Shown here in pieces: positions 30,813 through 36,322 of a stretch of 38,030 bases of DNA; positions within the stretch are counted from its first letter, which is position 1; each line of letters starts with the position of its first letter. The stretch is from Thermoplasmata archaeon (GTDB lineage: Archaea > Thermoplasmatota > Thermoplasmata > Methanomassiliicoccales > Methanomethylophilaceae). Made by a program: the position numbers and the translations under genes. The notes beneath the pieces were generated by a model. It searched no databases, was not told the DNA's origin, and worked only from the letters and a program-made list of their open reading frames with translations. Location: positions 1 through 38,030 of the forward strand of contig SUSX01000006.1 in the NCBI GenBank assembly GCA_015063195.1, in the 5' to 3' direction.

Positions 30813-32267
30813 TTACTCAAGAAGTTCGTTCCAACAGGCCTCAAGAAGCTGGTTTTCCTGGCGGACATTCTCGTACCTTACCATCTTTTGTTCGATGACA
30901 GTAAGGATCTGTTCGTCCGTGGATGCGGATGATGTTCCTCCGAGGGAGTTGCGTCTTTCGACACACATGTCGACGGTGATGCAGTTGTACACGTCCTCGC
31001 CGATGCAGTCGGAGAACTTGCCGAACTCCTCCAGTGAGAGGTCTTCAAGTTTCTTGTCGGTGTCGATACAGTATCTGACTGCAGCTCCTACGATACCGTG
31101 TGCTTCACGGAACGGGATTCCTTTGACTACAAGATAATCCGCAAGGTCCGTGGCATTAATGAATCCGTTCTCTACGGCGGCTCTCATGCGGTCCGTGTTG
31201 AATCTGATGGTTGAAAGAACAGGGCACATGATGTTGACGCACTGAAGGAGACAGTCCAAAGAATCCATGAGTGCCTTCTTGTCTTCCTGAAGGTCCCTGT
31301 TGTAAGAAAGCGGAAGGCCCTTCTGCATCACGAGCATGTTCATCAGAGTTCCGATGACGGATCCTGTCCTTCCTCTGATGAGTTCGGTGATGTCGGGGTT
31401 CTTCTTCTGCGGCATGATGGACGATCCTGTTGTGTACTTGTCATCCATTTCTACGAAACCGAACTCCTGTGAAGACCAATAGATGAGTTCTTCGGAGAGT
31501 CCGGAAAGGTGGATCTGTGTCTGTGATGCGGCGAATGCAATCTCGGATACGAAATCCCTGTCACTCACAGAATCCAGTGAGTTTTCTGTAGGTCCGTTGA
31601 AACCGAGTGCCTTTGCAGTCATTTTTCTGTCGATAGGATATGTGGTTCCTGCGAGGGCTGCGGCTCCGAGCGGACATTTGTTCATCCTGTTGTATGCATC
31701 CATGAAACGGTCGGCATCCCTGCTGAGTTTGAATGCATATGCAAGATAATGTTGTGCAACAGTTACCGGTTGGGCATGCTGCATGTGAGTGAAACCGGGC
31801 AGGATGGTGTTGCCGTGGTCCTGCGCGATTTTCACCATTACATCGATAAGAGCATCGATGGATGAAACGATTTCAAGGACAGATTCCCTGAGGTACATCC
31901 TATAGTCCGTGGCGACCTGGTCGTTCCTGCTCCTTCCCGTATGGAGTTTTCCTCCTGCGGGTCCGATCAGTTCGGTGAGTCTGAATTCCACGTTGGTGTG
32001 GATGTCCTCGAGGGAGAAGTCCAGTTTGAATTCGCCGTTCTCCATCTCGGCAACTATGGTCTTGAGACCTTCGATAATACGGTCCGCATCATCCTCGGGG
32101 ATAATCTGACATTTTTTGAGCATCCTTACATGAGCCAATGAGCCCATGACATCGAAGAATGCCAATGCCGAATCTGTTTCCAGGGATGTTGTGAAGTCGA
32201 GGGTGGACTCTGCCATCCCTCCTGCGAATCTACCTGACCATAGTGCCTGCTGTGACATGTGCCTCAC
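30813..32267 (-). CDS. argH: Argininosuccinate lyase
   Basis: LWSGRFAGGMAESTLDFTTSL...LHTGRSRNDQVATDYRMYLR...TGSSIMPQKKNPDITELIRG. Start could also be 32258. Confidence 0.96.
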   Translation of the reverse strand: MRHMSQQALWSGRFAGGMAESTLDFTTSLETDSALAFFDVMGSLAHVRMLKKCQIIPEDDADRIIEGLKTIVAEMENGEFKLDFSLEDIHTNVEFRLTELIGPAGGKLHTGRSRNDQVATDYRMYLRESVLEIVSSIDALIDVMVKIAQDHGNTILPGFTHMQHAQPVTVAQHYLAYAFKLSRDADRFMDAYNRMNKCPLGAAALAGTTYPIDRKMTAKALGFNGPTENSLDSVSDRDFVSEIAFAASQTQIHLSGLSEELIYWSSQEFGFVEMDDKYTTGSSIMPQKKNPDITELIRGRTGSVIGTLMNMLVMQKGLPLSYNRDLQEDKKALMDSLDCLLQCVNIMCPVLSTIRFNTDRMRAAVENGFINATDLADYLVVKGIPFREAHGIVGAAVRYCIDTDKKLEDLSLEEFGKFSDCIGEDVYNCITVDMCVERRNSLGGTSSASTDEQILTVIEQKMVRYENVRQENQLLEACWNELLE

Positions 32268-33478
32268 TTCTTGTGTGCTTTTGCCGCAGTCCTGTTGGGA
32301 AGTCCCCAGCAGTAGATGAATCCGGTTGCTGACTTGTGGTCGAACTCGTCACCGACAGCGTATGTTGCCAATCCCTCTTCGTAGAGTGAGTAGGGTGATT
32401 TGCGTCCTACGACCATTGCGTTTCCTTTGAAGAGCCTTACACGGACTGTTCCTGTGACGAATTCCTGTGTCTGGTCGACGAATGCGTCGATTGATTCACG
32501 GAGGACTCCGAACCAGAGACCGTTGTATGCGATCTGTGAGAATCTCTGTTCAATGATCTTCTTGAATTCAAGGACATCCTTCTGGAGTGTGAGGAACTCA
32601 AGTGCCCTGTGTGCGAGTGTAAGGACAGTTGCTGCGGGGCATTCGTATGTTTCCCTGCTCTTGATTCCTACGAGACGGTCCTCGACGTGATCGATACGTC
32701 CTACTCCGTGCTTGCATGCGATTGCATCGAGTTTCTGGATGAGTTCGACACCGTCGAGCTTTTCTCCGTTAAGTGCCTTCGGAATTCCCTTCTCGAATTC
32801 AACTTCTACGTACTCGGGCTCATCGGGAGCATCCTTGGGGTTTGTTGTCCATCCCCATGCCTCCTCCGGAGGTTCGATCCATGCATCCTCGAGGACACCG
32901 CATTCGCAGCTTCTTCCCCAGAGGTTCTCATCAACTGAGAAGGGGTTCTCTTTCTTGACGATGATTTCGATGTTGTTCTGCTGTGCGTATTCGATTTCTT
33001 CCTCACGGGTCATAACCCATTCCCTCATAGGTCCGATGATACCGATTGAGGGGTCGAGTGAAACAATACCTACGTCGAAACGAACCTGGTCGTTTCCTTT
33101 TGCTGTACATCCGTGTGCGATGTATTTTGCTCCCTCACGCTGTGCAATCTCTACGAGGATCTTGACGATGAGGGGTCTTGCGATTGCTGTACTGAGGGGG
33201 TAAACGTCCTCGTACATTGCGTTTGCCTTGAGTGAAGGCCAGATGTATTCCTCGACGAATTCTTTCTTTGCATCGACGAACTCGGCTTTGATTGCTCCGT
33301 TCCTGAGTGCACGTGCGACGATGTCATCGCTGCTCGGAGGCTGTCCTACATTGATAGCGACTGCAATGACGTCGAGGTTGTACTTGTCCTGTAACCATTT
33401 GATAGCGACGGATGTATCCAATCCGCCTGAGTAGGCCAAAACGACCTTTTCTCTGTTGCCTGCGTTTTCAGAGACCAT
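32264..33478 (-). CDS. argG: Argininosuccinate synthase
   Basis: KVVLAYSGGLDTSVAIKWLQDKYN...HGCTAKGNDQVRFD; start at ATG 33478. Confidence 0.96.
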   Translation of the reverse strand: MVSENAGNREKVVLAYSGGLDTSVAIKWLQDKYNLDVIAVAINVGQPPSSDDIVARALRNGAIKAEFVDAKKEFVEEYIWPSLKANAMYEDVYPLSTAIARPLIVKILVEIAQREGAKYIAHGCTAKGNDQVRFDVGIVSLDPSIGIIGPMREWVMTREEEIEYAQQNNIEIIVKKENPFSVDENLWGRSCECGVLEDAWIEPPEEAWGWTTNPKDAPDEPEYVEVEFEKGIPKALNGEKLDGVELIQKLDAIACKHGVGRIDHVEDRLVGIKSRETYECPAATVLTLAHRALEFLTLQKDVLEFKKIIEQRFSQIAYNGLWFGVLRESIDAFVDQTQEFVTGTVRVRLFKGNAMVVGRKSPYSLYEEGLATYAVGDEFDHKSATGFIYCWGLPNRTAAKAHKK

Positions 33479-33713
33479 ATTATCAGGAACAGGGTAAAAC
33501 GCGGGTGTGTATAAAGGTATAGCAACTAAATATACACTCTTGTGTAGATTGTGTTCATTTACGGTCAATGTCATTTGTATGCGACATTACTGTTTGAATG
33601 GAATATTGTGTGAAATCTACGTTATTCCGAATGATCAAGATTTGATTTTAATGTGAAAAATGTTTAGTTTAAAATTTGAGAATTTGTATTGGTGTGCATA
33701 AAAAAATAAAAAG

Positions 33714-33731
33714 GGGGATCTAACGATCCCC
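33714..33731 (-). terminator. Hairpin plus poly-T terminator of the secreted-protein gene
   Basis: On minus strand: GGGGATC-GTTA-GATCCCC followed by CTTTTTATTTTTTT. Confidence 0.65.
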
Positions 33732-34927
33732 TTAAGAGGTTTTAATTATGAAGAACAAGAAGCCTAATACTAAAAGTGCAAGAACGCACATAGCAATGAC
33801 AACAATGTCATCTGTTCCGAGTGATGCCTCTTCAGTTACTGTCTGAGAAGGTCCGGGGATAACGACAGATTCTCCGTCTCCTGCTGGAATCGGCTCATAG
33901 CATGCGGTAAGTACTACGTCTGAATCAGTGACTGTGAACATGTATCCGACAAGTGTTCCGTTATATGCCCATCCGACTGCATAGTATCCTTCTTTTACAG
34001 GAAGTGCAGGAAGTGAGACAGGCTGGCTTTCTGTTGCAGTGATTGTGGATGAAAGAACATCGAAGGAGATTGTGTACTGTGCAGGCGGAAGAATTGAATC
34101 AGCAGGCTGGAATCCTGAGAGTTTGGCCATGACATTAGGAGATTCCCCTGCAGGCACTGTGATCTTGTTCACAAATTGAGCCAACTCGGACTCATTGCTG
34201 GTGGACACATAGATTTCGGGGCAGTCTCCACTGGGGACGTCAATACTGTCTGCACAGTTCCAATGATTCATTTCAATGTCTTTTTCACAGTTTGTAAAAG
34301 TACAATCCGCAATTGAGACATTGATTCCTGCACCGTCGCCTCCGCTGACATAGAATCCTATTCCTGTATTCGTGTCCTCTGAACCGAAGTTGCATCCGTT
34401 CAGGTTCACGTCCCTTGGTCCTGTCCTGACAAGCATTCCTCCGACAGTGGCATCCCATTCGAAATTAACATTTGAGAAGGTTACTGTTCCGCTTTCAAGA
34501 GGGCAGAATCCACGGTAGTCATTTCCGTGATCGCATCCGTTCTTTTCAGGTGCGAAGATTACTGTTCCTTTGTCGGATGCAGTTCCTCCGACAAAGTTGT
34601 CCGCATAGAGGTACACTCCATGTTTTTCACTGTGAGTAGTGACCTTTATCGTGATTGTCTTCCCTGCAAGGTCTACATCAGGATACCAGTCCCTTTCATT
34701 TGTGAAATTGATAGTCCTGTCGCTGTCCCCTGCAAAAGAAAGGACCTTGCCTCTGTTATCTTCATTTAAAATCTGATTAACAAGATTTGTGTTGTCGGGA
34801 TAATCCTTAGAGTAAATCACATCGGGGCTGGGGTCAGCAGCATCCGATCCCCCCCCCCTACAATAGGTGCTAATAAAAGCATAGCTGTAAGGGCGAGGGC
34901 CATAATTGCGCTGAACTTAGATTTCAT
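33732..34927 (-). CDS. Secreted/surface beta-helix-like (adhesin-like) protein with C-terminal TM anchor; interrupted by a G10 tract frameshift in the presented sequence
   Basis: ATG 34927 preceded by GAGGT gives signal peptide MKSKFSAIMALALTAMLLLAPIVGG; body ORF (33732-34820) is in another frame; C-terminal TM DIVVIAMCVLALLVLGFLFFIIKTS. Confidence 0.7.
34849..34858 (-). repeat. Homopolymer of 10 G (C10 on + strand) at the signal peptide/mature junction
   Basis: Counted directly: gat-cccccccccc-ta. Confidence 0.95.
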
Positions 34928-35311
34928 AGTTCGACCTCTAAAATACGAATCCAAGACAGTCATGTGAATATTAAAAGGTTACTTCATCTCTAGCTTTTTA
35001 ATTAACTTCAACATGGTGTAATAATCAGATATATTGAGCTAAAGGAAAATATGCTGTTCTTATGATTCGAAAATAAATTTCCGATATTATCTGTTGATTA
35101 GAATCAAACACAATCATCAGGATTCTTCGAAAAATCTGTCTTTTATGCCGTGTCGTTTTCCGGCCAACTGCGTTGTTCCCTGAACATCAAGTTGTAACAA
35201 TGGAATCAAAACCGATGTGTGGGAAACAGGGTGAACATTCATTGTCTTATTTCAGACAATATATTTTTAATCACAATCACAATGGTCTGATTCTCAATAC
35301 AGGTGTATAAA

Positions 35312-36322
35312 ATGAAGAAAGTAGGCATAATCGGAGGTACCGGTTACACAGGAGGGGAGTTGGCACGCATTCTTTGCACGCACCCCGACATCGAGATTGT
35401 CTCAATGACATCCCGTCAGAATACCGGAAAGAAGGTGTCGGATGTACATTCGTACCTTGACGGATATTTGGACATAGAATTCAGTGAGAAGATCTCAAGG
35501 GAAATTGATCTTGCATTCGTTGCAACACCCCACGGTGTAGCGATGAAAGAGGTTCCGTCACTTCTCGAGTCAGGAATAAAATGTATCGATCTCTCCGGAG
35601 ACTACCGTCTTCATGATGTAAAGACCTATGAACTTTGGTACGGTCATGAGCACACGGATGTGGAAAATCTCCAGGATGCAGTATATGGTCTTCCAGAGCT
35701 GTTCCGTGACGAAATAAAAGGTTCCGATCTTGTAGCAAATCCCGGATGCTATGCTACCGCAACTATTCTGGCCTGCGCACCTTTGGTCAATGCAGGCGTA
35801 GCAAATGACGATATATTCGTAGATGCCAAGAGCGGTACATCCGGAGCCGGAATGGTTCCGACCGTACGTACTCACCATTCATACTGCGGTGAATCGATCA
35901 TCCCGTACAGTGTGGGAACCCACCGCCATACACCTGAGATAGAGATGGTATTGAACAAATTCACAGGAAAGAGTCCCGACGTTCTCTTTGTACCCAACCT
36001 TGTACCGATTGTACGCGGAATTCTTTCATCATGTTATTTCACACTCAAAGAGCCGATGTCTCCCGAGGAGGTGACTGCGATTTACAAGAAGCAGTATGAC
36101 GGAGAGAGGTTCGTTCATGTGACATCCGATGCATCCATAAGCAGTGTTGTCGCATCAAACCATGCACAGGTCAGTGTATCGACCATCGGTAACAAAGTAA
36201 TTGCTTTCGGAGCAATCGACAATCTGGTCAAGGGTGCTTCCGGTCAGGCGATACAGTGCATGAACTTAATGTTAGGATTAAACGAAACAGCCGGACTCAA
36301 CGCTCCGGGATTGGGGGTTTAA
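35312..36322 (+). CDS. argC: N-acetyl-gamma-glutamyl-phosphate reductase
   Basis: MKKVGIIGGTGYTGGELARILCTHPDIEI...NPGCYATATILACAPL. Confidence 0.96.
   Translation: MKKVGIIGGTGYTGGELARILCTHPDIEIVSMTSRQNTGKKVSDVHSYLDGYLDIEFSEKISREIDLAFVATPHGVAMKEVPSLLESGIKCIDLSGDYRLHDVKTYELWYGHEHTDVENLQDAVYGLPELFRDEIKGSDLVANPGCYATATILACAPLVNAGVANDDIFVDAKSGTSGAGMVPTVRTHHSYCGESIIPYSVGTHRHTPEIEMVLNKFTGKSPDVLFVPNLVPIVRGILSSCYFTLKEPMSPEEVTAIYKKQYDGERFVHVTSDASISSVVASNHAQVSVSTIGNKVIAFGAIDNLVKGASGQAIQCMNLMLGLNETAGLNAPGLGV

Follow-up and report, generated by a model that had tools for sequence, protein, structure and literature searches.

A run of ten guanines in the signal-peptide region of a surface-protein gene raises the question of whether a gut methanogen can switch this gene on and off by changes in tract length, or whether the gene is simply broken or misassembled. 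The gene lies in a 38,030-nucleotide window (the whole stretch of DNA analysed), which is contig SUSX01000006.1 (C65 in our numbering of contigs) of the Methanomethylophilaceae MAG GCA_015063195.1 (G000), a genome of 1.19 Mb in 93 contigs and 85% complete. Argininosuccinate synthase places this genome next to MAGs labelled Methanomethylophilaceae or Methanomassiliicoccales, several of which derive from sheep, goat and horse gut samples.

The coordinates given in the initial annotation are right in every detail. On the minus strand, ATG 34927 opens a 36-codon frame, MKSKFSAIMALALTAMLLLAPIVGGGDRMLLTPAPM, with a clean signal peptide (MKSKFSAIMALALTAMLLLAPIVGGG...), which runs through exactly ten G at 34858-34849 (C10 at 34849-34858 on the plus strand; codons 24-27 of the leader), just after the hydrophobic core of the signal peptide, and stops at TGA 34819-34817. 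A Shine-Dalgarno-like GAGGT (34938-34934) lies 6 nt upstream of this ATG and favours it over an in-frame upstream ATG at about 34963, and our reading of the sequence further indicates a candidate archaeal TATA box, TTTTAATATT, at 34976-34967 (minus strand), about 40 nt upstream of the start. The body of the protein (33732-34820, minus strand) is open over 362 codons in a different frame without internal stop, and its first listed start, GTG 34820, overlaps the stop of the short frame (GTGA). In silico, tracts of 8 or 11 G join both parts into a single ORF of 394 or 395 aa, in which the signal peptide is followed by SDAADPSPDVIYSK... and the C-terminus forms a predicted transmembrane helix, whereas the 10 G of the assembly leave the gene in an OFF frame.

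The function of the body is less evident. The C-terminal helix (33735-33815, minus strand; body residues 336-361) is the only well-predicted part of an AlphaFold model (blocks 341-360 at pLDDT 86-89, mean pLDDT of the model 45). The "adhesin-like" character proposed in the initial annotation is only weakly supported, as no adhesin domain reached threshold and the sole indication is a Listeria-Bacteroides repeat (PF09479) match at 33903-34076 (minus strand; body residues 249-306) below the gathering score (E=5e-4, 20.5 bits against a cut-off of 27). Leucine-rich repeats were not detected. A search with the body found no relative among the genome contigs searched and, within the genus, only the C-terminal repeat. 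The gene lies between argG (argininosuccinate synthase; 32264-33574, minus strand) and the divergent argC-like gene (N-acetylglutamyl-phosphate reductase; 35303-36322, plus strand). In those relatives in which both neighbours could be compared (loci L079-L082, L085, L088 and L090) argC and argG start within a few hundred bases of each other without the surface gene, so that the latter (within 33575-35302) is an accessory insertion.

The number of long G runs in this genome is by itself unremarkable. A first-order Markov model of the window expects 0.016 G/C runs of 10 or more in the window, and 0.49 runs of 10 or more and 2.2 of 9 or more in the genome, compared to three observed loci of 10-11 G and none of exactly 8. 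What stands out are the lengths, the otherwise intact alternative frame and the positions. All three loci, the only ones with 8 or more G, are situated at gene 5' ends. The second locus, shared between contigs C79 and C11, is a 498-aa surface protein (MNNGKIMLFSVLILALSMFVACLSLSDASEGGGAEPV...) with a hydrophobic C-terminus and a weak pectate-lyase-like adhesive domain match, whose tract sits at the end of the signal peptide (MNNGKIMLFSVLILALSMFVACLSLSDAS-E-Gn-AEPV), as in the window. The third, on contig C40, carries G11 six codons into a winged-helix gene (MFTSKS-Gn-FVANPK), which has only distant homologues in two genomes of the family. This gene begins about 44 bases behind a UG26-type reverse transcriptase (L011:1-2397), a candidate defence RT, and is possibly a phase-variable partner of a defence system.

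Indications of length variation come from contig ends. C79 and C11 share 117 upstream and 4 downstream bases, but possess 11 and 9 G, respectively. With 11 G the gene is open, with 9 G it stops about ten codons after the tract. Likewise, in the sister genome G001 two contigs (C12 and C34) share 77 + 11 bases and differ by having 12 and 11 G, 12 bp before a BspA-type surface gene. The simplest account is that the assembler met two tract lengths and broke. However, Illumina or PCR stutter could contribute, and we regard this pattern as suggestive and not as proof. An apparent pair of 10 and 11 G in the related genome G039 (C49/C37) was discarded as paralogues, because the flanks diverge after 84 bases.

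The recurrence of long G runs at the 5' ends of other surface genes, which the initial annotation had suggested as a check, was confirmed in this genome, in the sister species and across the family, and supports the phase-variable interpretation. All six genomes of the genus have runs of 9-12 G, and in the four genomes with a complete list of G7 runs there are 36 runs of exactly 7, one of 8 and 19 of 9 or more. This gap at 8 and hump at 9-12 resembles the distribution reported for Campylobacter, in which 9 and 10 dominate and 7, 8, 11 and 12 are less common (PMC6321876). When one rule is applied to both classes, 12 of 35 long tracts, but only 3 of 41 G7 runs, lie near the start of a gene with a hydrophobic N-terminus (Fisher p=0.0036), although by the same rule about two thirds of the genus tracts are not next to a secreted-protein start. 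Tracts occur in the signal peptide (window, C79), before it in the coding region (L071, L072, in frame or one or two bases away) and in the 5' UTR (L051, L053, L065, L066, L069). In L051, L053 and L060 poly-C tracts directly follow TATA-like boxes a few bases before the start codon, which suggests promoter-spacing or 5'-UTR switches. L065 and L069 are homologous surface genes with the same neighbour in two species, each with a tract in front, and L051 and L071 are members of the BspA-type leucine-rich-repeat (LRR) surface proteins (PF13306).

In the family, 79 of 102 genomes have runs of 9 or more, including the single-contig genomes G017 and G019, and in G017 two of them lie inside the signal-peptide genes MVSKTVIMIIVAAAVAVSVAGVVIAEGGDD... 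and MNSIYIIGALLAAAVCVGTGAYVVVGGGDD..., while two genera of the family (g6 and g12) have none. As such runs are scattered through the phylum (127 of 197 genomes), we rejected their number as evidence of a family-specific enrichment, and only G039, G040 and a few others stand out. Runs of 18-26 G in other MAGs of the family (L205/L211 in G096, with up to G26; G025:C53:3594-3618; G022:C35:60127-60144), some in opposed pairs, could be sequencing artefacts or further loci and were not used. G039 is extraordinary in having 97 tracts, and of 84 distinct tracts read, 41 are tied to a gene with a hydrophobic N-terminus. A tblastn search recovered forty copies of one family (within loci L229-L278 and L282-L341), in which the signal peptide NYNFPSRLNITVLFAAALFLAAAFFVTYSEPNESDAA directly follows a tract of 10 (2 copies), 11 (19), 12 (18) or 13 (1) G. 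A few may be two ends of one broken locus, and as copies were gathered around tracts, tract-free copies could have been missed. The bodies tested are BspA-type LRR proteins. For signal-peptide genes of G039 with the G run in the coding strand, the automatic frame call is 7 ON to 26 OFF, with bodies open as far as read.

Tracts are not confined to surface genes. G11 is found inside D12-class DNA adenine methyltransferase genes in two genera (PF02086, E=2e-61 and 3e-56), namely L073 of the genus genome G005 (L073:948-1802), in frame and beside a type II restriction gene, and L245 of G039 (L245:1414-about 2265), which is interrupted near codon 30 and OFF. We consider both as candidate archaeal phasevarions, although most bacterial phasevarions are type I/III systems. 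The mismatch-repair protein MutS (MutS_V, PF00488) is absent from all six genus genomes, but was found in 11 of 14 control genomes, including Haloferax and Methanosarcina, and its absence fits high slippage.

We interpret the gene as a simple-sequence contingency locus, and regard this interpretation as well supported although it lacks read-level or expression evidence at this tract, so that a fixed frameshift at this one gene is not excluded. Slippage during replication would add or remove G residues, such that 8 or 11 G yield a secreted protein anchored by its C-terminal helix (ON), while 9 or 10 G yield a short leader peptide (36 residues at 10 G), which makes the assembled consensus an OFF cell. 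The locus is most likely one member of a poly-G phasome in the Methanomethylophilaceae, acting mainly on surface proteins through tracts in the signal-peptide region or 5' UTR, and also on DNA adenine methyltransferases and a winged-helix gene. That length changes are biological and reversible, that they switch expression, and that they serve the avoidance of host antibodies, viruses or grazers, or adhesion bet-hedging, is inferred.

Among the alternatives, the most persistent, though still unlikely, is that in the absence of MutS G runs expand everywhere and surface genes are merely tolerant sites, so that lengths change without being a maintained adaptation. The many tracts in intergenic regions or unrelated genes and the occurrence of G runs throughout the phylum agree with this view. 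By contrast, the enrichment near secreted-protein starts, the retention of G10-13 at one position in about 40 paralogues, the tracts in two methyltransferase genes (a classical phase-variable class) and the absence of tracts from genera g6 and g12 argue against it. This view concerns purpose and does not deny switching. We also have to consider that the true tract is a fixed 8 or 11 G and the gene constitutively ON, as short reads miscall long G runs, the MAG is fragmented, and long tracts lie closer to contig ends than G7 runs (7/26 against 3/41, p=0.034). This appears improbable, because even with a fixed length here the placement at signal-peptide 5' ends recurs in many genomes, including single-contig ones, paralogues within one genome differ in length, and two long tracts of this genome (C65, C40) assembled through without a break. 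It is similarly doubtful that ribosomal or transcriptional slippage (homopolymer recoding is known in prokaryotes, PMC3711429) or reinitiation at GTG 34820, which would yield a body without signal peptide, makes the run a recoding or dosage element. The OFF stop overlaps a start codon of the body frame both in the window (GTGA, 34817-34820) and at C40 (ATGATG, L011 around 1020-1058), but we saw no such overlap for the 9-G frame of C79/C11, many tracts lie in 5' UTRs where recoding is meaningless, and tract lengths differ among similar paralogues. Least likely is a simple pseudogene, for although the gene is an accessory insertion, OFF in the consensus and without a full-length homologue on which selection could be measured, its 362 codons, anchor, leader and ribosome site are otherwise intact, and decay is not expected to produce the same tract placement, with ON and OFF examples, in independent genes of the same and related genomes.

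The mechanism itself is classical. The tracts parallel the poly-G/C contingency loci of Campylobacter in their length (mostly 9-12), in translational switching by frame, in intergenic tracts, in surface targets and in the many loci per genome, but they occur in Archaea, their targets are signal-peptide regions of surface proteins and BspA-type LRR paralogues, and their switching is so far putative. In Neisseria, homopolymers likewise lie in the promoter (porA) or coding region (the autotransporters nalP and mspA) of surface proteins (PMC3639595, PMC3723659), comparable to the tracts between TATA-like box and start codon in L051, L053 and L060, although here with archaeal promoters and secretion. 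A survey of 99 genomes, 18 archaea included, proposed short poly(A)/poly(T) tracts at gene starts as an inactivation system, but reported that poly(G) and poly(C) do not lie closer to 5' ends (PMC2831843), and mononucleotide repeats were found to be generally suppressed in Euryarchaeota (PMC4060949). In the open-access literature searched, which leaves earlier mention elsewhere possible, we found no report of multi-locus repeat-driven phase variation in archaea, in agreement with the initial annotation, which called slippage in poly-G tracts of surface genes little described there.

It is more likely than not that host-associated methanogens of the Methanomethylophilaceae possess true multi-locus poly-G phasomes, including an array of about 40 independently switching BspA-type surface genes in G039 and phase-variable DNA adenine methyltransferases. 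If so, they would be commensal archaea with a switching repertoire comparable to that of Campylobacter. Repeat-driven phase variation is studied almost only in bacteria, above all pathogens, and gut methanogens with tens of putative switches would make it testable whether host association, rather than virulence, drives such systems. Annotation pipelines may well have called the OFF genes pseudogenes. Such switches would also imply that the surface of these methane producers is heterogeneous within a population, which bears on vaccines, phages or antibodies aimed at rumen methanogens.
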